In this document: positions 2,796-64,000 of the stretch, in pieces
Numbering within the stretch: position 1 is the stretch's first letter
Layout of the letters: every line of letters starts with the position of its first letter
Origin: Pseudaminobacter salicylatoxidans
GTDB lineage: Bacteria; Pseudomonadota; Alphaproteobacteria; Rhizobiales; Rhizobiaceae
Reading direction: 5' to 3'
Assembly: GCF_003148475.1 (NCBI RefSeq)
Contig: NZ_QGGG01000006.1
Coordinates: 1 to 64,000 of the forward strand
Length of the DNA stretch: 64,000 bases
The notes under the pieces: model-generated
Told to the model about the DNA's origin: nothing
What the model saw: the letters and a program-made list of their open reading frames with translations, nothing else
Databases searched by the model: none
Made by a program: the position numbers and the translations under genes

Positions 2796-5123
2796 ATGGC
2801 CGCAGACATTCAACGCATTGCCGCGCTCATCGCGCCCGACATCAACGCCAGAGCGGATCAGGCCGCAGCCGCGATCGGGCTTTTGGATGAAGGCGCGACC
2901 GTCCCTTTCATCGCCCGTTATCGCAAGGAAGTGACCGGCGGTCTCGACGATACGCAACTGCGCACGCTGGCCGAGCGGCTGATCTATGTGCGCGAGATGG
3001 ATGCGCGCCGGTCCACCATTCTCGAATCGATCCGCGGCCAGGGCAAGCTGACCGACGAACTGGAAGCGGCGATTGCCGCCGTCACCACCAAGGCCGAGCT
3101 GGAAGACCTGTACCTGCCCTACAAGCCCAAGCGCCGCACGCGCGCCGAGATCGCCCGCGAGCGCGGGTTGGGGGCGCTGGCCGAGGCGATCCTTGCCGAC
3201 CGCGCGGCGGTGCCGGCCGAACTGGCTCAAGCCTACATCACCGGTGACGTGCCGGACGTGAAGACGGCGCTGGATGGCGCCCGCGACATCATTTCGGAGC
3301 AGTTTGCCGAAAACGCCGACCTCGTCGGCCGCTTGCGCAACTACATGAAGGAGCGCGCCTTCCTGCGTTCCAGGGTGGTCGATGGCAAGCAGGAGGCCGG
3401 AGCGAAGTTCTCCGATTATTTCGACCATGTCGAGCGATGGGCCAATGTGCCGAGCCACCGCGCACTCGCCATGCTGCGCGGCCGCAACGAGGAAGTGCTG
3501 TCGCTCGATATCGAGGTGGATGCCGACGACACGTCGCCGGTGAAGCCGGTGGAGCGCATGATCGCCGAAGCCAATACCATCGGCCGGCAGGGCGCTGGCG
3601 ACCAGTGGCTGGCCGATGTCGCCGGCTGGACCTGGCGCGTAAAGCTCTCGCTGTCGCTTTCGCTCGACCTCATGCGCGAGCTGCGCGAAAAATCCGAGGA
3701 AGAGGCGATCCGCGTCTTCGCGCGCAACCTCAAGGACCTGCTTCTGGCAGCACCTGCCGGCTCGCGCGCCACGATGGGCCTCGATCCGGGCATCCGCACC
3801 GGCGTCAAGGTCGCGGTGGTCGACCAGACAGGCAAGCTGCTCGACACCGCCACCGTCTATCCCTTCCCACCGAAGAACGACGTGCGTGGCACGCAGGCCG
3901 AGCTGGCGCGGCTGGCGGTGAAGCACAAGGTGGAGTTGATCGCCATCGGCAACGGCACCGCAAGCCGCGAGACCGAAAAGCTGGTCGCCGACTTGCTGTC
4001 GCCGATGCCTTCGCCCAAGCCGCTCAAGGTGATCGTCAGCGAGGCCGGCGCCTCGGTCTATTCGGCCTCGGAGACGGCGGCGGCGGAATTCCCCGGCCTC
4101 GACGTGTCGCTGCGCGGCGCGGTGTCGATCGCCCGGCGCCTGCAGGACCCGCTGGCCGAGCTGGTCAAGATCGAGCCGAAGTCGATCGGCGTCGGCCAGT
4201 ACCAGCACGATGTCGACCAGTATCGTCTCGCCCGTTCGCTCGACGCGGTGGTGGAAGATGCGGTGAACGCGGTCGGTGTCGATCTCAATACCGCATCCGC
4301 AGCGTTGTTGGCGCGGGTGTCGGGTCTTGGCGCATCGCTTGCCGAGGCCGTGGTGGCGCATCGCGATGCCAATGGCCCGTTTGCCAGCCGCAAGGAACTC
4401 CTGAAGGTCAACCGCCTCGGCCAGCGCACCTTCGAGCAATGCGCGGGTTTCCTGCGCATTCCCAACGGCGCCGAGCCGCTGGATGCTTCCGCGGTGCATC
4501 CGGAAGCCTATGGCGTGGCCAAGAAGATCGTCGCCGCCTGCGGCCGCGACCTGCGCGCGCTGATGGGTGACAGCGCGGCACTCAAGGCGGTCGATCCGCG
4601 CGCCTTCGTGGATGAGCGCTTCGGCCTGCCGACCGTGCGCGACATCATCGCTGAGCTGGAAAAGCCCGGCCGCGATCCGCGCCCTGAATTCAGGACCGCG
4701 ACCTTTGCCGACGGTATCGACGACATCAAGGACCTGAAGCCGGGCATGACGCTGGAGGGCACGGTGACCAACGTCGCCGCCTTCGGCGCCTTCGTCGACA
4801 TCGGCGTGCATCAGGACGGGCTCGTCCACCTGTCGCAATTGGCCGACCGTTTCGTGAAGGACGCGCATGAGGTGGTGAAGGCAGGCGACGTGGTGAAGGT
4901 GCGCGTGCTGGAGGTTGATATCAAGCGCAAGCGCATCAGCCTCACCATGCGCAACCACGACGATGGCGCGGGCGCGCGTCCGGGGTCCGCCTCGCGCGAC
5001 GACCGCGTGCAGCGTGGCGGGGGTGGCGGCAAATCGTTCAAGCCGGCCCCGCAGCAGAAGGGCGGCGGCGCATCGCAAGGTGCGTTTGGCGCTGCCCTTG
5101 CCGAGGCGATGAAGCGCAAGTAA
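2796..5123 (+). CDS. tex: Tex-like RNA-binding transcription accessory protein
   Basis: A 775-residue protein with the full Tex architecture: N-terminal helical Tex domain, YqgF/RuvC-like nuclease-fold domain near residues 325-450 ([14 protein letters not shown]), tandem helix-hairpin-helix motifs around 490-560 ([19 protein letters not shown]), and an S1 RNA-binding domain around 645-715 ([20 protein letters not shown]). The tail is rich in Gly, Arg and Lys, as in many Tex proteins. Tex binds nucleic acids and is linked to transcription and toxin expression in other bacteria. It stands alone and is followed by a strong hairpin at 5158-5183. Confidence 0.95.
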
Positions 5124-5157
5124 CCCCCTTCGGGCATGCGAAAGCAGACCTTATCTG

Positions 5158-5190
5158 CACCGGCCGGAGAAACCCGGCCGGTGACTTTGC
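5158..5190 (+). terminator. Probable terminator of tex
   Basis: A perfect 10-bp stem, CACCGGCCGG against CCGGCCGGTG with a six-base loop, is followed by a T-rich stretch ACTTTGCGTTT. It starts 35 bases after the tex stop codon. Confidence 0.7.
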
Positions 5191-5238
5191 GTTTGGACGG
5201 CCTGTTTTCGAACTGACGTAAGATTCTGTCCTGCGTCA

Positions 5239-5265
5239 TGTCGGCAATTGCGTTACTCATTCGTC
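5239..5265 (+). promoter_or_regulatory. Candidate ECF42-type promoter of the DGPF-sigma pair
   Basis: TGTCGG at 5239-5244 and CGTC at 5262-5265 are separated by 17 bases and lie just upstream of the DGPF gene start at 5289. Published ECF42 target promoters (Streptomyces venezuelae work) have a TGTCGA-like -35 and a CGA/TC-like -10. The match and the location support autoregulation. A small hairpin, CGTCTT/AAGACG at 5262-5278, overlaps the -10 and lies before the ribosome-binding site. Confidence 0.6.
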
Positions 5266-5288
5266 TTCGAGCAAGACGGAGGAGATGA

Positions 5289-5663
5289 ATGCTCTACGCG
5301 ATCCTTTGCTACAATTCCGAAGATGTTGTCGGCTCCTGGAGCAAGCAGGAGGACGACGAGGTGATGGCGCGGCTGGGCGCCGTGCAGGAAAAGGTGGCCG
5401 CGGCCGGCAAGCTCGGCCCGGTCGTGCGGCTTTTGCCCACCACCGCCGCCGCCACGCTGCGCAAGGGCCGCGACGGTCCGCTGGTGATCGACGGGCCATT
5501 TGCCGAAACCAAGGAGCAGTTTCTGGGTTTCTATGTCGTGGATTGTGAAACGCTCGATGAGGCTCTGGAGATCGCGAAGGAGTTGCAGGCCGCCAATCGC
5601 GGCCCCGGCGCTTATGAAGTCCGGCCCATCGGCATCTTCCGGCCCGGAGGCCTGACCGCATGA
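5289..5663 (+). CDS. YCII-related DGPF-domain protein
   Basis: A 124-residue YCII-family (ferredoxin-like fold) protein carrying the diagnostic DGPF motif (VIDGPFAETKEQFLGFY). Translation starts at the ATG after GGAGGAGATGA, a strong ribosome-binding site. Such proteins are nearly always encoded beside ECF42-type sigma factors; the enzymatic or binding role of the DGPF protein is not settled. Its stop region overlaps the sigma factor start by 4 bases (ATGA), so the pair is one translationally coupled operon. Confidence 0.9.
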   Translation: MLYAILCYNSEDVVGSWSKQEDDEVMARLGAVQEKVAAAGKLGPVVRLLPTTAAATLRKGRDGPLVIDGPFAETKEQFLGFYVVDCETLDEALEIAKELQAANRGPGAYEVRPIGIFRPGGLTA

Positions 5664-6928
5664 CCGCAGACCCTTCCTGGATAGACGATGCGCTGACGGC
5701 GGCCCGGCCGCAGGTGGTCGGCGCATTGCTCCGTTATTTCCGCGATCTCGACGCGGCGGAGGAAGCCTTCCAGGAGGCGTGCCTGCGGGCGCTGAAGAAC
5801 TGGCCGCAGAACGGCCCTCCGCGCGATCCGGTTGCCTGGCTGATCTTTGTTGGGCGCAACACCGGCATCGACGCCATCCGCCGCACCTCCCGGCAAGCGC
5901 CGATGCCGGAGGAGGACAGGGTGTCGGATCTCGACGATGTCGAGACGCCGATGGTCGAGCGGCTGGATGGGGCCGATTATCGCGACGACATATTGCGGCT
6001 GATGTTCATCTGCTGCCATCCCGAACTGCCCGCTACCCAGCAAGTGGCGCTGGCGTTGCGTATCGTCTCCGGGCTCAGCGTGAAGCAGATCGCGCGCGCC
6101 TTTCTCGTCAGCGAGGTGGCGATGGAGCAGCGCATCACGCGGGCCAAGGCGCGCATCACCCGTGCCGACGTGCCTTTCGAGGCGCCCGGCGCGGTGGAGC
6201 GGTCGGAGCGCCTCGCGGCAGTCGCGGCGATGATCTACCTGATCTTCAACGAAGGTTATTCGGCCGGCTTCGGTGAGGCGGGCGACCGCGCGCCACTATG
6301 CGACGAGGCGATCCGACTGGCTCGCCTGCTGCTCAGGCTGTTCCCCGCCGAGCCGGAGATCATGGGCCTCACCGCGCTGCTCCTGCTTCAGCATGCGCGC
6401 GCTGCCGCGCGTTTCGACGCCGATGGTGGGGCGATATTGCTGGAGGATCAGGACCGCGGCCTGTGGAACCGCGCCATGATCGCCGAGGGGCTGGCGCTGA
6501 TCGACAAGGCCATGCGTCATCGCCAGCCGGGGCCTTATCTGTTGCAGGCGGCGATAGCCGCGCTCCACGCCCGCGCGGCGAAGCCGGAAGACACCGACTG
6601 GGCCGAGATCGAGCTGCTTTACGCCATGCTGGAGCGGCAGGAGCCGTCGCCGGTGGTGACGCTCAACCGGGCCGTCGCGGTCGCCAAGCTGCGTGGGCCT
6701 GAAGCCGCACTTGCCATGGTCGAGCCACTGGAAGAACGGCTGTCAGGCTATTTCTACCTGTTCGGGCTCAAGGGCTATCTGCTGATGCAGCTTGGCCGCC
6801 GGGCAGAGGCGCGCATGGCCTTCGATCGCGCCATCGCGCTGGCCAACACGCCGGCGGAAGCGGCGCATATCCGCATGCATCTGGACCGGCTGATGAAAGA
6901 AAGCGGCGCACCGGCGCGCACCGGATGA
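5660..6928 (+). CDS. ECF sigma factor with C-terminal TPR-like extension (ECF42-like)
   Basis: A 422-residue sigma factor, about twice the length of a classical ECF factor. Sigma region 2 lies around residues 10-80 (LDAAEEAFQEACLRAL) and region 4 around 115-170 (LSVKQIARAFLVSEVAMEQRI). The remaining 230 residues are helical and TPR-like (YFYLFGLKGYLLMQLGRR). ECF42 factors have no anti-sigma gene; the C-terminal extension takes part in control, as reported for the group. It overlaps the upstream DGPF gene by 4 bases and is followed by three perfect hairpins. It probably drives its own operon from the 5239-5265 promoter. Confidence 0.92.
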   Translation: MTADPSWIDDALTAARPQVVGALLRYFRDLDAAEEAFQEACLRALKNWPQNGPPRDPVAWLIFVGRNTGIDAIRRTSRQAPMPEEDRVSDLDDVETPMVERLDGADYRDDILRLMFICCHPELPATQQVALALRIVSGLSVKQIARAFLVSEVAMEQRITRAKARITRADVPFEAPGAVERSERLAAVAAMIYLIFNEGYSAGFGEAGDRAPLCDEAIRLARLLLRLFPAEPEIMGLTALLLLQHARAAARFDADGGAILLEDQDRGLWNRAMIAEGLALIDKAMRHRQPGPYLLQAAIAALHARAAKPEDTDWAEIELLYAMLERQEPSPVVTLNRAVAVAKLRGPEAALAMVEPLEERLSGYFYLFGLKGYLLMQLGRRAEARMAFDRAIALANTPAEAAHIRMHLDRLMKESGAPARTG

Positions 6929-54727: not shown

Positions 54728-56056
54728 TCAAACCCCTGTCGTCGGCCTCGGCTTGGTGCCGTCGATGAAGCGCTCGTAGCGGAACGGTTTCGGATCGACG
54801 ATCGGCGAATCACCCGTGGCGAGATTCGCCGCCAGCCGCCCCGCGGCGGGGCCGATGCCGAAGCCGTGGCCGGAAAAGCCGGTGGCGATCACCAGGCCGG
54901 GCAGCGATTGCACAGGCGAGATGACCGGAACCGCATCGGGCGTGGTGTCGATGAAGCCTGCCCAGCGCTGCAGCACAGGCGCCCCTTTCAACAAGGGGAA
55001 AACCTCCTCCATCTTCCGGTGCACCTCATCGAGACGCGCCGTCGCAGGCATGGGGTCGAGCGTGCGATGCTGTTCATAGACCGTCTGGTCGGGGTCGGTA
55101 GACGGCTTCAGGCCGAACGGGCCTGTGAAGAAATCCATCCCGGCGCGCAGGCGCACCATGCGCCAGTCCTGCATCAGCATCGGCAGGAAATCGGACAAAT
55201 AGCGGAAGCTGCCGGGCACGATGTGGTGATAGTTGAGCATTCCGTCGGCAATCGTGTAGCCGCCGTCCAGTCTCTTGCGGTAGGCGAGGTTCCTGCCCCA
55301 TGCCGCATTGTCGGGCCCGCCTTCCACCGGCCCGGTGCGCATGACGGACGCCCGCACCACCAGTTGCGGCAGCCTGATTCCGAGCGAGCCGCACAGATGG
55401 CTCGACCATGCGCCGCCAGCGATGATCACCGTGCCGGTACGAATCGCGCCCTTCTCCGTCACCACGCCGCTGATGCGCCCGCCCGTGGTTTCGATTTCCC
55501 GCACCGCGCAATTGGCAAGGATATGCGCGCCCGCGCGACGGGCGGCCCGTGCGATGGCGGGAGCGGCCTTCTGCGGTTCGGCGCGCCCGTCGCTCGGGGT
55601 GTAAAGTGCCGCGCGATAGCTGCGCGTTGCGCCCGGCATCAGGGCCGATAACGCCGCGCCATCGATGATATGGGTGTCGAGCGCATGGTCGCCGGCTATT
55701 TTCAGCCAGTTTTCCTGATGCGCGATGTCCGCATCGTTCTCGCACAGATAGAGGATGCCGGAGCGCCGGAAGCCGACATCCGTGCCGGTCAGTTCCTCCA
55801 TCTGCGGCCAGAGCTTCAGCGCCTCGACGATCAGCGGCAGTTCGCGCGGATCGCGGCCCATGCGCCGGCACCAGCCCCAGTTGCGGCTTGATTGTTCGCC
55901 GGCGATATAGCCTTTCTCGCACAGCGCGACCGAAACACCGCTCTTCGCCAGGAACAGCGCCGCGCTGACGCCGATGATGCCGCCGCCGATGATGACGACG
56001 TCGGCGCTGTCGGGGCGGCTATCGTCCTCAGGAACCGGATCGACTTGCGGACCCAT
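54728..56056 (-). CDS. FAD-dependent oxidoreductase, D-amino-acid oxidase/DadA superfamily
   Basis: A 442-residue flavoprotein with the FAD-binding motif VVIIGGGIIGVSAALFLAKSG at about residues 20-38 and the C-terminal signature GFSGHGFGIGPAAGRLAAN. It belongs with DadA, sarcosine and hydroxyglutarate-type dehydrogenases and oxidises an amine or hydroxy acid; substrate is unknown. The ATG at 56056 follows GGGAGAAGAAAAGC; the 73-codon upstream extension is rejected. It is divergent from a D-2-hydroxy-acid dehydrogenase gene, so the two may serve a common pathway. Confidence 0.9.
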   Translation of the reverse strand: MGPQVDPVPEDDSRPDSADVVIIGGGIIGVSAALFLAKSGVSVALCEKGYIAGEQSSRNWGWCRRMGRDPRELPLIVEALKLWPQMEELTGTDVGFRRSGILYLCENDADIAHQENWLKIAGDHALDTHIIDGAALSALMPGATRSYRAALYTPSDGRAEPQKAAPAIARAARRAGAHILANCAVREIETTGGRISGVVTEKGAIRTGTVIIAGGAWSSHLCGSLGIRLPQLVVRASVMRTGPVEGGPDNAAWGRNLAYRKRLDGGYTIADGMLNYHHIVPGSFRYLSDFLPMLMQDWRMVRLRAGMDFFTGPFGLKPSTDPDQTVYEQHRTLDPMPATARLDEVHRKMEEVFPLLKGAPVLQRWAGFIDTTPDAVPVISPVQSLPGLVIATGFSGHGFGIGPAAGRLAANLATGDSPIVDPKPFRYERFIDGTKPRPTTGV

Positions 56057-56301
56057 GCTTTTCTTCTCCCAAATGGCCGGATGATGCGGCACCGTCGCGG
56101 ATGCTCTTTTGAAGCGTATTCGCTCCGGCGGCGCATTGTGCCTGCCGGGGCTATGCATAGGGCCTGAGCACCCGGCAATTTCGATGACGATGCGGCGGCT
56201 TTGCCACGCTTCAAAAACCGGGGTAACCGCCGCAAGCCCCACATTGCAAGCGAAATTGCCTCGTCTATAAGGCACGTGAGGAAACCGGACGACATGGCAT
56301 C

Positions 56302-57690
56302 ATGGCACAACAGATCGAACAGCTAATCTTGGCCCTTCAGGGCAAACTGGACAGCGCGGCCATCCTTGTTGGAGACGCGGTCGATCCGCGCTACAGCGAC
56401 GATCTTTCCCACGAGGTTTCGCATCGCCCGGAAATCGTCCTGCGCCCGCGCAACACCGGCGAGGTCGCCGAGATTCTCAAGGCCTGCAACGCTGTCGGCC
56501 AGAAGCTGGTGACGCAGGGCGGGCGCACGGGTCTTGCAGGGGCTGCCCGCGTGCAGGCCGGCGAGGCGGTGTTGACGCTTGAGCGCATGACCGCGCTTTC
56601 GCCGGTCGAGCCGGCCACCGCTACGGTGATTGCCGAAGCGGGCGTGCCGCTGCAGATCGTGCAGGAGCATGCCGATGCCGCCGGCTTCATGTTCGCGGTC
56701 GATATCGGCGCGCGTGGCACCGCCACCATCGGCGGCAACATCTCCACCAACGCAGGCGGCATCCGTGTGCTGCGCTATGGCAATTTCCGCGCGCAGGTGC
56801 TGGGCGTGGAAGCCGTTCTGGCCGATGGCAGCGTGGTTTCCTCGCTCAAGGGCCTCGCCAAGGACAATAGCGGCTATGATCTGAGCCAGCTTTTCATCGG
56901 CAGCGAAGGCACGCTCGGCGTGGTCACCCGTGCTTGCCTGCGGCTGCATCCCAGGCCGGTAACGCAGTCGGTTGCCTTTTGTGCGCTGCCGTCGCTGGAC
57001 GCGGCGATGGAACTGCTGAAATTCCTGCGCGCGCGTCTCGGCACGTTGCTGTCGGGCTTCGAGGTTATCTTCGATCCACTGATGAGCGAGATGGCCGGTG
57101 CGCTCGGCCTGCAGCCGCCGGTTGAACTCAACGCGCCGGTCTATGTGCTGACCGACATTCAGGGCATGTCGCCCGAAACCGACGAGACCGTCTTTGCCGA
57201 GGCGCTCGGACAGGCGATCGAGGACGGACTGGTGGCCGATGCGGTGCTGTCGCAGTCGGAGCGTGAATTCCAGACGCTGTGGGCGCTGCGCGACGACTGC
57301 AACACCTATCTCTTCGGGCTGGAGCCGATGCTGAGCCTCGATGTCAGTCTGCCGCTGCCGCGCATGGGCGAATTTCTGGCTCTGGCCAGGGAAGCGCAGA
57401 GAAAGGCCGATCCGTCGGGACGGGACTATATCTTCGGCCATCTCGGCGATGGCAATCTGCACTATTGCGTCAAGACCGACGCGCCGGACGCCGTGGCCAG
57501 GGCCGTGCTCGATTGTGTCGCCCGGACGGGCGGTTCGATTTCCGCCGAGCATGGTATCGGGCTGGACAAGAAGTCCTATCTGCATCTGTCGCGCAGCGCG
57601 GTCGAAGTCGCGGCCATGCGCCGGGTGAAGGCCGCGCTCGACCCCAACAATATCCTCAATCCGAGCCGCATATTCGACATGACGGCCTGA
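56302..57690 (+). CDS. FAD-binding D-2-hydroxyacid dehydrogenase (GlcD/D2HGDH type)
   Basis: A 462-residue flavoprotein of the vanillyl-alcohol-oxidase fold. The N-terminal FAD domain shows VTQGGRTGLAGAARV and GNISTNAGGIRVLRYGNFR; the C-terminal cap has the metal-ligand segment FGHLGDGNLHYCV and SAEHGIGLDKKSYL, typical of D-lactate, glycolate and D-2-hydroxyglutarate dehydrogenases. It oxidises a D-2-hydroxy acid to the 2-oxo acid, probably feeding electrons to an electron-transfer flavoprotein or quinone. Substrate is not determined. Confidence 0.92.
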   Translation: MAQQIEQLILALQGKLDSAAILVGDAVDPRYSDDLSHEVSHRPEIVLRPRNTGEVAEILKACNAVGQKLVTQGGRTGLAGAARVQAGEAVLTLERMTALSPVEPATATVIAEAGVPLQIVQEHADAAGFMFAVDIGARGTATIGGNISTNAGGIRVLRYGNFRAQVLGVEAVLADGSVVSSLKGLAKDNSGYDLSQLFIGSEGTLGVVTRACLRLHPRPVTQSVAFCALPSLDAAMELLKFLRARLGTLLSGFEVIFDPLMSEMAGALGLQPPVELNAPVYVLTDIQGMSPETDETVFAEALGQAIEDGLVADAVLSQSEREFQTLWALRDDCNTYLFGLEPMLSLDVSLPLPRMGEFLALAREAQRKADPSGRDYIFGHLGDGNLHYCVKTDAPDAVARAVLDCVARTGGSISAEHGIGLDKKSYLHLSRSAVEVAAMRRVKAALDPNNILNPSRIFDMTA

Positions 57691-57707
57691 CGGTCGCTTA
57701 CGCGACC

Positions 57708-58589
57708 TCACATCGAATAGCGTACGCGACCGGCTTGCGAGGTGTCGTAGCCGGTCAGTTCGGCTGCGCGGCGGGTAGGGTTGTCACCGGCGAGGAAAGC
57801 CGCCAGGGCCTGGAACGGTGGCTGGAAATAGCTGCGCTGGCGCAGCAGCAGGTCGAAATTCTCCCATACCAGCGGCACGAAATCGAGCCCGGCGCCGCGC
57901 GCCGCCGCGCGCGTGGCAAGGCCACAATCGGCCGCGCCGGTGCGGATGGCGACCGCAAGGTCAGGGCCGGTCAGGCAGGGCGGCTCCAGCCGGTTGACGT
58001 CCGCGGGGGTGGCGCCAAGCCGTGCCAGCAGGGCCTCCAGCAGCATCTGCGCGCCGGCTCCTTTCTGGCGCATGGCGATCCTTGCGCCGGCAGCCAGTGC
58101 ATCGGCCAGCGAGGCCAGCCCCAGCGGATTGCCGGGCGGCACCAGCAATCCTTGTTCGCGCCGGGCAAAAGCGATCAGTACGGCGTCATGCAGCCGCGGC
58201 ATCGCCGCGACCGTCGCCACATTGGCGTCCTCGTCTTCGCTTGCCCCATGATAGTGGATTGCGGCGGCCAGCGCCTCGCCGCGCAGCAGGCGCTCGACGC
58301 CATTGGCCGACCCCTCGGCCAGCGTCGCGAGACCCGAGCCGGATTGCCGCAGGCACCATTCCAAAAGGTCGTCCTGGCTGCCCGCGACGATGGGCGGCGG
58401 CTCTCCCGCAATCATGCCGGCGGGGCGCATCAGGCCCGAAAGCACCCAGCGGTCGAGCTCACCGCGCGGAAACAGCCATTTGCCCGCAACCTTGCTGCAG
58501 GGAACCGCGCCCTCGGCGATCAGCTCGTAGAGCTTGCGCTCGCCAATGCGCAGATAGTCCGCAGCCTCGCTCGTGGTCAGGAAATCCAT
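57708..58589 (-). CDS. HTH regulator with fused periplasmic-binding-protein-like domain
   Basis: A 293-residue cytoplasmic protein: an excisionase/MerR-type HTH at residues 3-50 (TTSEAADYLRIGERKLYELI) and a binding-protein-like domain (PBP_like, about residues 75-285; DCGLATRAAARGAGLDFVPL). There is no signal peptide, so the domain senses an intracellular ligand, presumably tungstate, molybdate or a cofactor intermediate. It is divergent from the Tup-type transporter by 89 bases, so it probably represses that operon. The same kind of domain ends the MoeA-like protein at 62134. Confidence 0.9.
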   Translation of the reverse strand: MDFLTTSEAADYLRIGERKLYELIAEGAVPCSKVAGKWLFPRGELDRWVLSGLMRPAGMIAGEPPPIVAGSQDDLLEWCLRQSGSGLATLAEGSANGVERLLRGEALAAAIHYHGASEDEDANVATVAAMPRLHDAVLIAFARREQGLLVPPGNPLGLASLADALAAGARIAMRQKGAGAQMLLEALLARLGATPADVNRLEPPCLTGPDLAVAIRTGAADCGLATRAAARGAGLDFVPLVWENFDLLLRQRSYFQPPFQALAAFLAGDNPTRRAAELTGYDTSQAGRVRYSM

Positions 58590-58678
58590 TCTGCATTCTT
58601 ATGCATATTTCTGCGTATGTTCAAGAATTTGACAGATATGGAAACCTTGCCGTCAAATGATGAAAAGGGAGGGCGAAA
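58590..58678. promoter_or_regulatory. Divergent control region of the tup locus
   Basis: AT-rich 89-base gap containing CATA-N8-TATG-type imperfect dyads (GCATATTTCTGCGTATG, about 58602-58618) and a TTGACA hexamer near 58630. The exact promoter and operator are not resolved; ribosome-binding site AAGGGAGG precedes the permease start. Confidence 0.4.
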
Positions 58679-59374
58679 ATGCCGGAAGGCCTGGATGCCT
58701 GGCAGCTTATTGTCAGCGGCGATGCGACATTGTTCGCCATCGTGCGCCTGTCGCTGGCCGTCAGTCTTTCAGCGGTGCTGATCGCCACGATCACTGGCCT
58801 GCCGCTCGGCGCGGCGCTGGCGCTCACCCGCTTTCCCGGCCGCACCGGGCTTATCGTTATCCTCAACGGTTTCATGGGCCTGCCGCCGGTGGTGGTGGGC
58901 CTTGCCGTCTATCTGCTTTTGTCGCGTTCCGGCCCGCTCGGCTTCCTCGGCATTCTGTTCACGCCGCTTGCCATGGTGGTGGCGCAAGCGCTGCTGGTGC
59001 TGCCCATAATCGCCGCCCTCGCGCGCCAGACCATCGAGGACCTGTGGCGCGAATATCGCGACGAGCTCGCGGCCATGGATGTCGGCGCGGCGGGGCGCGT
59101 GGCCACGCTGCTGTGGGACAGCCGCATCAGCCTGTTGACCGTGCTGCTGGCGGGCTTCGGCCGCGCGGCGGCGGAGGTCGGCACCGTGATGATCGTGGGC
59201 GGCAATATAGACGGCTTCACCCGCACGATGACGACAGCGATCGCACTGGAGACATCCAAGGGCGACCTGCCGCTCGCCATGGGCCTCGGCATCGTCCTCA
59301 TAGCCCTGATATTGCTGATCAATGCGGGGGTATGGGGCCTGCGCGTGTGGTCCGAGCGCCGGGTGGGTGCATAA
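58679..59374 (+). CDS. tupB: Tungstate-type ABC transporter permease
   Basis: A 231-residue permease with five to six membrane helices and the segment EYRDELAAMDVGAAGRVATLL (EAA loop; quoted region slightly divergent) of TupB/WtpB-like importers, as well as ALALTRFPGRTGLIVILNG. It starts behind GGGAGGGCGAAA. Its stop codon shares one base with the ATPase ATG. Tungstate rather than molybdate is inferred from the TupA-type partner at 60119. Confidence 0.88.
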   Translation: MPEGLDAWQLIVSGDATLFAIVRLSLAVSLSAVLIATITGLPLGAALALTRFPGRTGLIVILNGFMGLPPVVVGLAVYLLLSRSGPLGFLGILFTPLAMVVAQALLVLPIIAALARQTIEDLWREYRDELAAMDVGAAGRVATLLWDSRISLLTVLLAGFGRAAAEVGTVMIVGGNIDGFTRTMTTAIALETSKGDLPLAMGLGIVLIALILLINAGVWGLRVWSERRVGA

Positions 59375-60096
59375 TGCGCGCGCCCCACAGCGATTTGCCA
59401 CTGGCGCTCGACGAGGTTTCGTTGCGCGCCGGCGAGACGGGCATTCTCGACCGGATCAGTCTGACGATCCGACCCGGTGCGCCAACCCTCATCGTTGGTC
59501 CCAACGGTGCGGGAAAGTCGTCGCTGCTGCGCGTCTGCATGGGATTGCTGGCGCCCACTGCCGGGGGCGTGTCGTGGGGCGGGCGCAGGGATGCGCGGCC
59601 GTTGCGGCGCGCATTCGTGTTCCAGCGCCCGGTCATGCTGCGTCGCTCGGTTGCGGCCAATGTCGCCTATGCTCTTGCGCAGGCGGGCTGCCCGCGCCGG
59701 CTGCGTGCCCTGCGGGTCGAGGAATTGCTGGACAGCGTCAGCCTTTCCGGCCTGGCCGCCCGCCCGGCGCGTTCGCTGTCGGGTGGCGAGCAGCAGAAGC
59801 TGGCGCTTGCCCGCGCCCTGGCGCGCGATCCCGAACTCTTGTTTCTCGATGAGCCCACCGCCAATCTCGATCCCGCCGCCACCCGCGGCGTCGAGGAGAT
59901 CGTGCGTGCGGCCGCTGGCGCGGGCATCAAGATCGTCATGGCTTCGCATGATCTCGGCCAGGTGCGGCGGCTGGCCGGCGAGGTGCTGTTCATGGTGCGC
60001 GGATGTCTGCGCGAGCAGAGCGAGGCCGATGCCTTTCTCGACCGCCCTTCAACACCTGAAGCCGCTGCCTTCCTGCGCGGCGACATTGTCCTTTAG
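59374..60096 (+). CDS. tupC: Tungstate-type ABC transporter ATP-binding protein
   Basis: A 240-residue ATPase: Walker A GPNGAGKSSLLRVCMGLL, signature LSGGEQQKLALARALARDP, Walker B LLFLDEPTANLDP and switch histidine in MASHDLGQVRRL. It lacks the C-terminal regulatory (TOBE) domain of ModC, in keeping with TupC proteins. Its ATG overlaps the permease stop by one base (TAATG). TupC energises uptake of the oxyanion. Confidence 0.93.
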   Translation: MRAPHSDLPLALDEVSLRAGETGILDRISLTIRPGAPTLIVGPNGAGKSSLLRVCMGLLAPTAGGVSWGGRRDARPLRRAFVFQRPVMLRRSVAANVAYALAQAGCPRRLRALRVEELLDSVSLSGLAARPARSLSGGEQQKLALARALARDPELLFLDEPTANLDPAATRGVEEIVRAAAGAGIKIVMASHDLGQVRRLAGEVLFMVRGCLREQSEADAFLDRPSTPEAAAFLRGDIVL

Positions 60097-60118
60097 ACGC
60101 TGAAACGGAGTTTCCCCG

Positions 60119-60952
60119 ATGTTACGCAGACACTTTCTTTTCTGCCTTTCCGCGCTGCTTGCGCTGGCTGCAGGAACGGCCGCGACTTTCGCCGAGGACC
60201 GCTCCATCGTGGTCGCCTCGACCACCTCGACGCAGGATTCGGGCCTGTTCGGCCACATCCTGCCGATCTTCAAGGACAAGACCGGCATTGAGGTGAAGGT
60301 GGTGGCGCTGGGCACCGGGCAGGCGCTGGACCTTGCCCGCCGCGGCGATGCCGATGTCGTCTTCGTCCACGCCAAGGCGCAGGAGGAAAAATTCCTTGAG
60401 GAAGGCCATGGCGTGAAGCGCTTCGACGTCATGTATAACGACTTCGTGCTGATCGGCCCCAAGAGCGACCCGGCAGGCGTGGCCGGCACCAGCGACATCG
60501 TCGCCGCGCTCAAGGCGATCCAGGAAAAGCAGGCGCCCTTCGTCTCGCGCGGCGACAGGTCCGGCACGCATGTGGCCGAGCTGAAGCTGTGGAAGGATGC
60601 CGGCATCGACATCGATGCGGCCAAGGGTCCCTGGTATCGCGATATCGGTCAGGGCATGGGTGCGGCGCTCAACACCGCCGGTGCCATGAACGCCTATGTG
60701 CTGTCCGATCGCGGCACATGGCTGTCGTTCAAGAACCGTGGCGACCTTGAGGTCGTGGTCGAAGGCGACAAGCGCCTGTTCAACCAGTACGGCGTCATGC
60801 TGGTCAGTCCCGACAAGCATCCGAACGTCAAGGTGGACCTCGGGCAGGCTTTCATCGACTGGCTGATCTCGCCCGAAGGGCAGCAGACGATCGCAAATTA
60901 CAAGGTTGACGGCCAGCAGCTCTTCTTCCCCAACGCATCGCAGGGAAGCTGA
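60119..60952 (+). CDS. tupA: Tungstate-binding periplasmic protein
   Basis: A 277-residue binding protein with signal peptide (residues about 1-25, FCLSALLALAAGTAATFA) and the TupA oxyanion-site motif STTSTQDSGL (residues 34-43). Other typical parts are RGDRSGTHVAELKLW and GAMNAYVLSDRGTW. TupA proteins bind tungstate in preference to molybdate. ModA-like features are not seen. It is followed by two MoeA-like genes, pointing to uptake linked to cofactor assembly. Confidence 0.92.
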   Translation: MLRRHFLFCLSALLALAAGTAATFAEDRSIVVASTTSTQDSGLFGHILPIFKDKTGIEVKVVALGTGQALDLARRGDADVVFVHAKAQEEKFLEEGHGVKRFDVMYNDFVLIGPKSDPAGVAGTSDIVAALKAIQEKQAPFVSRGDRSGTHVAELKLWKDAGIDIDAAKGPWYRDIGQGMGAALNTAGAMNAYVLSDRGTWLSFKNRGDLEVVVEGDKRLFNQYGVMLVSPDKHPNVKVDLGQAFIDWLISPEGQQTIANYKVDGQQLFFPNASQGS

Positions 60953-60981
60953 GCCCGCGACCATTGCCAAGCCGCGTTCAC

Positions 60982-61000
60982 ATGGCCCATCATGGGCCAT
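60982..61000. repeat. 19-base perfect palindrome at the start of the first moeA-like gene
   Basis: ATGGCCCAT-C-ATGGGCCAT is a perfect inverted repeat whose right arm contains the first bases of the proposed ATG at 60999. It could be an internal operator or an RNA hairpin limiting initiation. Confidence 0.5.
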
Positions 61001-62129
61001 GATGTTTGCCCGTCCCAATGGTTTTGCGCTGACCGGTGTCGAGGCGGCGCTGGCGCTGCTGCTCGACGGCCTGGAGCCGGTCGCGCCGGTCGAAGTGCCG
61101 CTGATCGAAGTTGCCGGCTGCGTGGCGGCCGGGCAGCCGCCGTTGGCGCAGGCGCTGCCCACCGCCGACGAGGCCGTGATCGATGGCTGGGCCTTTGCGG
61201 CCGCCGACCTTGCCGGCGCATCCGCCTATTCGCCTTTCGTGCCGGTCTCGCCGCCTTCCTGGGTGGAGGTCGGTCAGCCCATGCCGGTCGGCTGCGACTG
61301 CGTGCTGGAGCCGGGACTGGTGGAGGAAATCGGGCCGCTGGTTCAGGTGCTGGCCGAAGCGGTTCCAGGACAGGGCGTGCGCCGTGCCGGAACCGACCTG
61401 CCTGCCGGCCATCCGCCGGTTGCTGCCGGGCGCCCGGTTTCACCGGCCGACCTGTTGCCCGCCCGTCGCGCCGGCGTGATCCGCTTGCAGGTGCGCCGGC
61501 CTTCCTTGCGCATCATCGATATCGCCGCGAGCGACGGCGCCAGTTCCGCATCCGAAACGGTTGCGGAACTGGCGCGGGCGGCGGGTGCGTCTATCCCGGC
61601 AGGCATCGAAACGACCGGCCGTGCCGTAGCGGATATCGTCGCGGCGCTGGATGCCGGATCGGCCGACCTTGTCGTGCTGGTGGGCGGCACGGGTGCCGGC
61701 CGTTCCGATGAGGTGGCTGCGGCTCTGGCCGCACATGGCGCGCTTGGTGCCCACGGCATTGCGATGGCGCCGGGCCGCACCACGGCCATCGGCCGGCTGC
61801 GCGGCATACCGGCGATTGCCTTGCCGGGAGCGCCGGATCAGGCGCTTGCCGGCTTTCTCGTGCTTGTTCTGCCGGTGATCGACCGCCTGACCGCACGATG
61901 CCCCCGGCAGGCCGAAACCTTGCCGCTGGCGCGCAAGATCGCGTCGTCCATCGGCGTCACGGAACTTGTCCTTCTGCGGCGCGGGGACAGGTCATGGATG
62001 CCGCTTGCCGCCGGGACGCTGCCGTTGCAATGCGTCGCGGCTGCCGATGCCTGGCTGACTGTCGGGGCCAACAGCGAAGGATTTGCGGCCGGCGCGGAAG
62101 TTTCCGCGTTTGCGCTGCGCAATGGGTGA
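60999..62129 (+). CDS. MoeA-like molybdopterin-binding protein (divergent)
   Basis: About 376 residues from ATG 60999 (a second ATG follows at 61002; no clear ribosome-binding site). It has the MoeA N-terminal layout (LPTADEAVIDGWAFAAADLAG, the counterpart of the usual SAMDGYA segment) and a MoCF/MogA-type domain at about 190-300 (LVVLVGGTGAGRSDEVAAAL), then a C-terminal beta domain. Key acidic and Gly motifs are weaker than in true MoeA, so it may be an accessory or regulatory paralogue. It stands between tupA and the second moeA-like gene. Confidence 0.82.
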   Translation: MMFARPNGFALTGVEAALALLLDGLEPVAPVEVPLIEVAGCVAAGQPPLAQALPTADEAVIDGWAFAAADLAGASAYSPFVPVSPPSWVEVGQPMPVGCDCVLEPGLVEEIGPLVQVLAEAVPGQGVRRAGTDLPAGHPPVAAGRPVSPADLLPARRAGVIRLQVRRPSLRIIDIAASDGASSASETVAELARAAGASIPAGIETTGRAVADIVAALDAGSADLVVLVGGTGAGRSDEVAAALAAHGALGAHGIAMAPGRTTAIGRLRGIPAIALPGAPDQALAGFLVLVLPVIDRLTARCPRQAETLPLARKIASSIGVTELVLLRRGDRSWMPLAAGTLPLQCVAAADAWLTVGANSEGFAAGAEVSAFALRNG

Positions 62130-62133
62130 ATGA

Positions 62134-64000
62134 ATGAACAATGCTTCTCCCCGCCCGGATGCCGCGACGGTCGCGGGCATCGAGCAGGAACAGTTTCTGG
62201 CGATCCTGTCGCGAGAGGAGGCACTGGCGCGCTTCGAGGCGGCGCTGTTTCCGCGCCCCATCGCTCTTGATGAACGGTTGCTGGGCGAAGCGCTCGGATC
62301 GGCGCTCGGCGCGGATGTGGTCGCACCTATCGACGTGCCGCCCTTCGACCGCGCCAATGTCGACGGTTTTGCCGTTCGCTCGGCCGATCTTGCCCAGGCC
62401 GGCGAGGCGCACGCCGCCCTCCTCGCCCTCAATGACGAACGCATCGCCTGCGGCACGCTGCCCGGCCTTGCCGTGTCGCCGGGCACCGCCACGCCGATCT
62501 CCACCGGCGGCCCGATCCCGCGCGGCGCCGACGCGGTGATCATGGTCGAGCACACCGAGCCGGCGGGCGAGGGCATCGAGGTTCGCCGCGCCGCGGGGCC
62601 CGGCCAGTTCATTTCCTATGCCGGTTCCGACATGGCGCGCGGCGAAACCCTGCTGCGGGCCGGAACCGTCATTGGCGCGCGTGAGGTGGGCATGCTCGCC
62701 GCTTGCGGCATTGCCGTCGTGACGGTGGCGCGCAAGCCGAGGGTGGCGGTGCTGTCCACCGGCGACGAACTGGTTCAGCCCGGCGCGCCGCTGCCGCCGG
62801 CCGGCATCTACGACACCAACGGCGCCATCGTTTCGGCGGCCATTGCTGAAAATGGCGGCGAGCCTGTCTTTCTGGGCGCCTTCCCGGACGACGAAGCGAA
62901 GCTGGAAGCGGCGATGCGCGCCGCCCTTGCGCAACACGACATGCTGATCCTGTCGGGCGGCACCTCGAAGGGGGCGGGCGACGTTACCCACCGCATCATC
63001 GCGCGGCTGGGCAAGCCCGGCATCGTGGCGCATGGCGTGGCGCTGAAACCCGGCAAGCCGCTGTGTCTGGCGGTCTGCGACGGCAAGCCGGTGGTCATCC
63101 TGCCGGGGTTCCCCACCTCGGCAATGTTCACCTTCCACGACATGATCGTGCCGGTGCTGCGCCGCATGGCGGGTTTGCCGCCGCGCACCGATGCCCATGT
63201 CGCGGCAACCGTGCCGTTGCGTGTGCCCTCCGAGCTTGGCCGCACGGAATTCGTCATGGTCTCGCTGGTCGAGGGGCGGGAAGGGCTGGTCGCCTATCCC
63301 ACGGGGAAAGGCTCCGGCGCGATAACGTCCTTCACGCAGGCCGACGGTTTCGTCCGCATCGAGGCGCTGGCCGACCACCTGCCGGCGGGCACGCAAGTCG
63401 AGGTCACGCTGTTTACCCCGCAGGTTCATGTGCCCGACCTCGTCATCATCGGCAGCCATTGCACCGGGCTAGACCGTGTGCTGGCGCCATTGGCGCGTCA
63501 GGGTCTCTCGCTGCGTTCGCTGTCTGTCGGCAGCCTTGGCGGTCTGGCGGCCGCGCGGCGCGGCGAATGCGACCTCGCGCCCATCCACCTGTTTGACGAC
63601 AAGACGCGGAGCTACAACGAGCCTTTCCTGTCGCCGGACCTCGAACTGGTGCCGGGCTGGCGACGCATGCAGGGTTTTGTCTATCGCAAGGGCGACGCGC
63701 GCTTCGAGGGTCTGTCGGCGCAGGCCGCCGTTGAGGCAGCACTTGCCGATCCCGCCTGCCTGATGGTCAACCGCAATCAGGGTGCGGGCACGCGCATTCT
63801 CATCGATGCGCTGCTCGCCGGCGCACGGCCAGACGGCTACTGGAACCAGCCGAAATCGCACAACGCCGTGGCGGCCGCCGTGTCGCAGGGCCGGGCGGAT
63901 TGGGGCGTCACCATCGCGCCTGTGGCAGATGCGGCTGGGCTGGGCTTCATCGCGCTCACCGAGGAGCACTACGACTTCGCGCTTGTGTCGGCGCGGCGCG
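62134..64000 (+). CDS. MoeA fused to periplasmic-binding-protein-like domain (cut by window end)
   Basis: At least 622 residues from ATG 62134; the gene runs past the window edge. Residues about 20-425 form a full MoeA (PPFDRANVDGFAVRSADLA, VAVLSTGDELVQPG, LSGGTSKGAGDVTHRII, KPGKPLCLAVCDGKPVVILPG), the enzyme that inserts molybdate or tungstate into adenylylated molybdopterin. Residues 435 onward (VPDLVIIGSHCTGLDRVL, MVNRNQGAGTRILIDALLAG) form a binding-protein-like domain of the same kind as in the regulator at 57708. The start lies five bases after the first MoeA-like stop. Confidence 0.93.
   Translation, partial: MNNASPRPDAATVAGIEQEQFLAILSREEALARFEAALFPRPIALDERLLGEALGSALGADVVAPIDVPPFDRANVDGFAVRSADLAQAGEAHAALLALNDERIACGTLPGLAVSPGTATPISTGGPIPRGADAVIMVEHTEPAGEGIEVRRAAGPGQFISYAGSDMARGETLLRAGTVIGAREVGMLAACGIAVVTVARKPRVAVLSTGDELVQPGAPLPPAGIYDTNGAIVSAAIAENGGEPVFLGAFPDDEAKLEAAMRAALAQHDMLILSGGTSKGAGDVTHRIIARLGKPGIVAHGVALKPGKPLCLAVCDGKPVVILPGFPTSAMFTFHDMIVPVLRRMAGLPPRTDAHVAATVPLRVPSELGRTEFVMVSLVEGREGLVAYPTGKGSGAITSFTQADGFVRIEALADHLPAGTQVEVTLFTPQVHVPDLVIIGSHCTGLDRVLAPLARQGLSLRSLSVGSLGGLAAARRGECDLAPIHLFDDKTRSYNEPFLSPDLELVPGWRRMQGFVYRKGDARFEGLSAQAAVEAALADPACLMVNRNQGAGTRILIDALLAGARPDGYWNQPKSHNAVAAAVSQGRADWGVTIAPVADAAGLGFIALTEEHYDFALVSARR

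Follow-up and report, generated by a model that had tools for sequence, protein, structure and literature searches.

How an aerobic bacterium comes to choose tungsten over molybdenum matters for CO2-reducing formate dehydrogenases (FDHs), and a locus relevant to this choice closes the 64,000-nucleotide stretch of DNA analysed here (the window, which opens contig C6), whose source is, judging the order from named relatives, a Hyphomicrobiales-type bacterium. Positions 57708-64000 are a genuine gene cluster for tungstate import, sensing and cofactor building: a regulator with helix-turn-helix (HTH) and periplasmic-binding-protein (PBP) domains, a TupBCA-type transporter and MoeA-like genes lie where the original prediction had placed them, with intact reading frames and clear domain matches. 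The cluster most likely feeds a tungsten-type formate dehydrogenase, FDH1, encoded elsewhere in the same genome. As a whole, an explanation that combines a tungsten-cofactor locus, a MoeA1-type insertase, an accessory MoeA pair and FDH1 as the customer strikes us as probable. Its components, directly observed except where marked otherwise, are the following:

57708..58589, minus strand: regulator, excisionase-like HTH_17 plus PBP_like, TaoR-type architecture (PBP_like PF12727 E=5e-48; HTH_17 PF12728 E=1.4e-13)
58592..58616, minus strand: predicted operator (prediction only), three TGCA-like units (58592, 58602, 58612) with 10-base-pair (bp) spacing in the regulator/tupB intergenic region
58629..58634, plus strand: TTGACA, read in the sequence, a possible -35 element towards tupB
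58679..59374, plus strand: tupB, ATP-binding cassette (ABC) permease (NCBIfam ABC_perm1 238 bits, cut-off 100; TupB 167 bits, under the TupB cut-off)
59374..60096, plus strand: tupC, ABC ATPase (ABC_tran E=7e-28; Walker A GPNGAGKS, signature LSGGE, Walker B LFLDEP)
60119..60952, plus strand: tupA, tungstate-type substrate-binding protein (PBP_like_2 E=5e-50; TupA model 242 bits)
61002..62129, plus strand: degenerate MoeA-like protein of 375 residues, probable counterpart of Methylorubrum extorquens MoeA5 (MoeA_N, MoCF_biosynth; no MoeA_C match)
62134..64000 (end at contig position 64089), plus strand: MoeA-PBP fusion of 651 residues, probable counterpart of M. extorquens MoeA3 (MoeA_N, MoCF_biosynth, MoeA_C, PBP_like; NF011068 754 bits, cut-off 534)
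64278-64910, minus strand, past the window on C6: mobA (named from the sequence and the annotated counterpart in Mesorhizobium sp. INR15)
64903-65793, minus strand, past the window on C6: fdhD (named likewise)
C6:65942-67198, plus strand, past the window: canonical moeA, MoeA1-like (named likewise)

All six reading frames within 57708-64000 are intact, the last being cut by the window edge, and the regulator is divergent from the tupB-tupC-tupA-MoeA-like-MoeA-PBP run. The tupC frame was counted from 59374, a start picked to fall directly behind tupB, and an alternative upstream TTG start at 60906 is possible for the degenerate MoeA gene. Pfam gives no match for tupB at 0.001, and Rfam no family at gathering score in 57600-64000.

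Is the transporter one for tungstate? TupA aligns over nearly its full length with tungstate-binding proteins of known structure, 3lr1 at 257 bits and 5my5 at 217 bits. It retains the ligand positions Arg118, Thr124, Asp170 and His59 named for Desulfovibrio alaskensis TupA, whose TTTS reads STTS here (PMC5517513). Homology and these conserved positions lead us to infer that TupABC imports tungstate. The Walker motifs of the ATPase, which had been predicted to be complete, are indeed both present in TupC. Heterologous expression points the same way: tupBCA of M. extorquens PA1 allowed active FDH1 in E. coli BL21, and E. coli makes some active FDH1 given tungstate uptake via ModABC or M. extorquens TupBCA, a dependence that supports TupBCA as the tungstate route (PMC13396061).

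Which enzyme, then, receives the metal? It had been expected outside the window, and a candidate was found there. The genome has eight PF00384 matches, three of which read as formate dehydrogenases from sequence and gene order: an fdsGBA-type FDH (L023) on C6, accompanied by fdhD and fdsD, a respiratory FDH on C1 (L024) and FDH1 at the end of contig C16, with an alpha frame of 738 residues before the contig end. The FDH1 alpha subunit reaches 1064 bits against 7vw6 (tungsten FDH from M. extorquens) and 482 bits against 6tg9, a molybdenum enzyme; together with the fused beta subunit (563 residues), this places it with the tungsten FDH1 enzymes of the M. extorquens kind. It is preceded by a TusA-like gene with 61% identity to INR15 TusA over 74 residues. 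An aldehyde oxidoreductase (AOR) finds no support as customer in this genome, which gave no AFOR_N match. Reading past 64000, as had been proposed for finding the enzyme, yielded further cofactor genes (mobA, fdhD and the canonical moeA) and, beyond them on C6, genes without a visible cofactor link, the FDH1 candidate itself being on another contig.

The genes also stand together in relatives. Plasmid unnamed3 of Mesorhizobium sp. INR15 (NZ_CP045499.1) carries, in one run, the regulator, tupBCA, degenerate MoeA, MoeA-PBP, mobA, fdhD, moeA, tusA, FDH1 beta and FDH1 alpha, twelve proteins with 49 to 84% identity each to those of this genome. In Methylobacterium oryzae, tupBCA and the two MoeA-like genes are grouped with FDH1, mobB and a canonical moeA; Mesorhizobium sp. 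AR07 has the MoeA pair, FDH1, moeA, fdhD and mobA, with no tup in the stretch read.

Co-occurrence across 249 genomes of the order gives the same picture. TupA was present in 122 (E up to 1e-40), FDH1 in 89 (1e-200), AOR in 41 (1e-20), a respiratory FDH in 87 (1e-200), MoeA-PBP in 32 (1e-120) and the regulator in 82 (1e-30). TupA was found in 88 of the 89 FDH1 genomes, 39/41 with AOR, 87/87 with a respiratory FDH, 32/32 with MoeA-PBP and 80/82 with the regulator, and one or more of the three enzymes were encoded by 118 of 122 TupA genomes versus three of 127 TupA-less ones. MoeA-PBP lies no more than 25 kilobases (kb) from FDH1 in 12 of the 17 genomes with both and equally close to TupA in 21 of 32, and it stands beside an AOR gene in three; four loci that hold two copies of AOR or TupA were not subdivided. 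Where FDH1 is absent, AOR seems to be the enzyme served by this tungsten module, as at the loci L077 and L080. There, an AOR-family gene and a 4Fe-4S ferredoxin-like gene stand beside MoeA-PBP (L077 2609-4952 in G165; L080 near 4518-6839 in G027), with a ModE-like winged-helix protein in between. In the family to which the window belongs, TupA turned up in no further member among the nine listed, so the locus is patchy there. In one genus (G035:C1, G112, G143), two TupA genes were seen per genome, the copy in the MoeA cluster being without tupB/tupC matches alongside and the other lying elsewhere.

Who inserts the metal? Here, the expectation of two MoeA-like proteins and an intact MoeA core has to be refined, since both are present yet very unlike: the examined positions are kept in the MoeA-PBP fusion, whereas the first protein has lost its catalytic ones. 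MoeA-PBP, with four domains in one chain, retains D59, T100, D142, E188, D228, D259, K279 and S303 (E. coli numbering throughout). In 29 degenerate sequences, including the window's, T100 and S303 are kept in none, E188 and K279 in one each and D228 in six, while D59 and D259 each persist in 27, in an alignment whose most divergent rows (e.g. L049, L052) fit only loosely. T100, E188 and D228 have catalytic roles, and with these positions and MoeA_C missing, the first protein lacks the marks of a functional molybdotransferase. Nevertheless, none of the 29 stretches contains a stop, so the gene looks maintained rather than decaying. It directly adjoins MoeA-PBP in 21 of 21 mapped loci (20 and the window's own, excluding lower, ordinary-MoeA-looking matches and G123) and lies less than 600 bp away in nine more genomes (gaps of 21-569 bp, from coordinates), i.e. 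in 30 of 32 genomes, the other two (G089, G137) being unchecked. A betaproteobacterial Variovorax cluster has an intact MoeA in its place, without the residue signature described next.

The canonical moeA outside the window encodes Arg and Ala at the positions of M. extorquens MoeA1 R291/A312, a pair present in 22 of 22 alphaproteobacterial cluster loci having such a gene. Among 20 MoeA proteins from TupA-less genomes, each a best match rather than a proven orthologue, the pair occurs in two; of the remaining 18, all with Lys, six combine it with Ala and 12 with Ser. At these positions, MoeA-PBP shows the canonical combination of Lys with Ser. In M. extorquens, reversal of R291/A312 admitted some molybdenum, though MoeA2, as the authors point out, remained present (PMC13197769).

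Genetics in that organism help to divide the labour (PMC13197769). Its FDH1 holds tungsten, with molybdenum under detection; this loading requires moeA1, mobB and fdhD, and moeA2 to moeA5 are dispensable. Deletion of moeA1 abolished both FDH1 activity and tungsten, while deletion of moeA3 or moeA5 left 41 and 40 versus 50 U/mg, respectively, and that of moeA3 a tungsten value of 0.33 versus 0.48. MoeA5 (META1p3047), MoeA3 (3048), MobB (3049) and MoeA1 (3050) are neighbours, with identities to E. coli MoeA of 26.7% (MoeA5), 36.3% (MoeA3) and 40.6% (MoeA1). In M. oryzae, the corresponding values are 23.9% for the degenerate MoeA, 36.5% for MoeA-PBP and 40.5% for the canonical MoeA. Because of these similar identities, the window's degenerate MoeA and MoeA-PBP are probably the counterparts of MoeA5 and MoeA3, a match made by this route and not from the AM1 sequences. 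The proposed coupling of import to cofactor insertion thus holds in that gene order joins tup to pterin-cofactor genes. Insertion by the two MoeA-like proteins of the window, in contrast, is unsupported, as catalytic positions are gone from the first of them and moeA3 and moeA5 are dispensable where moeA1 is essential; the essential insertase is probably the canonical moeA product encoded just outside the window.

How is tungstate sensed? The regulator begins directly with its HTH, without a signal peptide by eye, and with its PBP-type ligand domain this supports the idea of an intracellular-type sensor at a tungstate-type locus. At ample tungsten supply, TaoR is reported to repress tupABC and to activate aor. 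HTH_17 plus PBP_like without a signal peptide is the TaoR architecture, TaoR being described as a tungsten aldehyde oxidoreductase regulator (PMC11980592, citing Rajeev et al. 2019). For the regulator of the window, we infer ligand (tungstate versus molybdate) and direction of regulation. Among 84 regulator matches, 59 lie within 6 kb of TupA. Searching the Protein Data Bank (PDB) with a profile built from 26 regulators brought no credible match (best E=0.081) and with a single regulator sequence likewise none, and a single-sequence structure model was useless (mean pLDDT, a predicted local confidence score, of 44).

The likely operator, predicted from sequence and partly supported by held-out loci, consists of three TGCA units 10 bp apart. 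Upstream of 26 regulators (regulator loci minus duplicates and the most distant ones), the best TGCA scores at period 10 summed to 255 versus a mean of 189.0 in 100 shuffles (standard deviation 4.5, maximum 203), and other periods from 7 to 14 reached z values of at most 3.6; the unit was picked after viewing the sequences, and the regions are related. A matrix built on 19 of the 26 (excluding L085, L086, L088, L097, L100, L104 and L105) was then applied to 21 held-out loci (115,799 bases), seven of which have a site scoring at least 18. The reversed matrix gave 0 such sites and 40 column-shuffled matrices a mean of 0.12 (maximum 1). Four of the seven belong to one genus; in these, the regulator gene sits beyond tup and points towards it, and the site precedes tupB by 40 to 70 bp, which fits tup as the target. 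Of the other three, one is located upstream of its regulator (L173), one between regulator and tupB on Rhodobacterales plasmid pSMR1-3, and one inside the regulator gene (L177). In the window, the units end 13 bases before the TTGACA at 58629; a promoter scan of 58400-58900 found no promoter.

A wider regulon was also considered. Scanning the genome with a pattern, not the full matrix, gave 15 matches versus 5 for the reversed control; the best besides tup (19.7, on C4) is beside genes that by eye look permease-like and proline-racemase-like, and it is not convincing. Two operator-like scores at AOR loci were dropped: 17.9 in L077, where the site lies inside the start of the ferredoxin-like reading frame, and 16.8 in L080, judged by eye to do likewise.

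Several findings weigh against the overall explanation. TupA (242/400 bits) and TupB (167/320 bits) both fall below their own curated NCBIfam cut-offs, so they are filed as TupABC-type by homology and not as NCBIfam equivalogs. FDH1 is on a different contig from the cluster in this assembly, its alpha gene cut by the contig end, and 15 of the 32 MoeA-PBP genomes have no FDH1 at cut-off; the co-occurrence counts also ignore relatedness. E. coli can make some active FDH1 with its own MoeA, so that in this host a dedicated insertase is no strict requirement (PMC13396061). As for the operator, 14 of the 21 held-out loci are without a strong site, the repeat is absent at three regulators far from tup (L086, L088, L100), and stretches with the FDH genes of this genome have no operator-like site (best 10.5), so that the regulon looks local.

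Three other explanations deserve weighing. The MoeA-PBP fusion might itself be the tungstate insertase, its PBP domain catching the anion and passing it to the MoeA active site, with the canonical MoeA left to make molybdenum cofactor. Such a role was proposed from an 86% co-occurrence with TupA and a shared locus in 28% (PMC11733289), and it agrees with the presence of TupA in every MoeA-PBP genome surveyed and with the intact MoeA positions of the fusion. Yet the moeA3 deletion kept most activity and tungsten where that of moeA1 abolished both, provided the counterpart assignment holds (PMC13197769), and the fusion has Lys/Ser, not the Arg/Ala of MoeA1; on balance, we find it rather unlikely. 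A further shift of emphasis would make the respiratory, membrane-linked FDH the main customer in place of FDH1. The first six genes adjoin such an enzyme on Sinorhizobium meliloti pB, and 11 of the 12 MoeA-PBP genomes without FDH1 or AOR have one, in eight cases no more than 15 kb away (the remaining genome, G123, has a completeness of 56%). In addition, TupA accompanies it without exception, and this genome encodes one on C1. Given that INR15 and most genomes with both genes tie the module to FDH1, we nonetheless judge it unlikely.

That the system handles molybdate throughout, transporter, sensor and MoeA proteins alike serving molybdenum formate dehydrogenases, seems very improbable. The shortfall of TupA and TupB against their models would fit it, as would the fdsGBA-type FDH of this genome and the weaker binding of molybdate by TupA proteins (PMC5517513). 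It sits poorly, however, with the retained tungstate-selective ligand positions, with the tight co-occurrence with FDH1 and AOR and with the tungsten-containing, molybdenum-free (to detection) FDH1 of M. extorquens (PMC13197769).

Returning to the tungsten-cofactor locus with a MoeA1-type insertase, we envisage the following pathway, in which ligand, metal, binding and regulation are deduced from sequence. TupABC would import tungstate, and the TaoR-type regulator would sense the oxyanion inside the cell through its PBP domain, binding the predicted triple TGCA site between itself and tupB and probably turning down tup and itself when tungsten is plentiful. Insertion of tungsten into the pterin would fall mainly to the canonical MoeA of MoeA1 type, whose gene neighbours mobA and fdhD, as M. 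extorquens genetics and the shared residues suggest, while MoeA-PBP and the degenerate MoeA may form an accessory pair capturing, filtering or handing over the oxyanion. The finished cofactor would go to FDH1 on C16 and perhaps also to the respiratory FDH on C1.

The linkage of the MoeA pair with TupA suggests a role under other conditions, e.g. scarce tungstate or excess molybdate. A bolder and tentative version, which we would currently doubt, holds that the degenerate MoeA is a non-catalytic subunit joined with MoeA-PBP in a tungstate-selecting hand-off complex, needed mainly under those conditions, and that tup in aerobic alphaproteobacteria is controlled by the excisionase-like regulator on a triple 10-bp TGCA direct repeat. 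The complex would explain the strict linkage despite the mild deletion phenotypes in M. extorquens.

Some neighbouring observations may be recorded. Before the cluster, window positions 54728-57690 encode a DAO-type flavin adenine dinucleotide (FAD) oxidoreductase and a GlcD-like FAD oxidase, with no tungsten link seen. Substrate-binding-domain proteins of 255 residues adjoin the MoeA pair or FDH1 on two Mesorhizobium plasmids (L115 13959-14726; L111 24547-25314), and a small hypothetical gene with a doubtful beta-lactamase label lies in the FDH operon of the Variovorax paradoxus VAI-C plasmid (L114 8609-8860). Two respiratory FDH alpha matches (G112:C103:3498-6461, G157:C285:6577-9465) contain one in-frame TGA each, which could be selenocysteine or an error.

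The main parts of the system are already described, namely the TaoR-type regulator, TupABC, MoeA-PBP linked to TupA (PMC11733289) and the M. extorquens tungsten pathway. Possibly new are the degenerate MoeA beside MoeA-PBP and the predicted triple-TGCA operator; a search of openly available literature returned no paper on either, although the TaoR paper may contain such a site. These two and the MoeA1 residue signature across clusters are the additions worth following, as the locus brings together FdhD, three MoeA variants, a sensor and a transporter of the tungstate type and makes pseudo-MoeA and operator directly testable.

How, finally, does the locus compare with known systems? The TupABC of D. 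alaskensis (PMC5517513; PDB 5my5) is alike in the TupA fold region and the four ligand positions and unlike in its TTTS and in the NCBIfam cut-offs that are missed here. TaoR-family regulators share the two domains and the tie to tungstate transport genes (PMC11980592), whereas the present one, known from its sequence, stands beside tup and FDH-type cofactor genes. Described MoeA-PBP fusions have the same domain order, score above the NF011068 cut-off and co-occur with TupA; the degenerate MoeA that precedes the fusion here goes unmentioned in the available portion of PMC11733289. With the M. extorquens AM1 cluster (PMC13197769), the locus shares tupBCA, the Arg/Ala of the canonical MoeA, fdhD in the pathway, FDH1 as customer and two further MoeA paralogues (there the adjacent moeA3 and moeA5). 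In AM1, mobB stands beside moeA1, while here the cluster contains fdhD and mobA, and the genes read in C6:57001-77000 showed no mobB; a TaoR-type regulator adjoins and FDH1 sits on another contig. The closest likeness is that to Mesorhizobium sp. INR15, where the gene order is the same from the regulator through the canonical moeA and where, unlike here, tusA and FDH1 come straight after.

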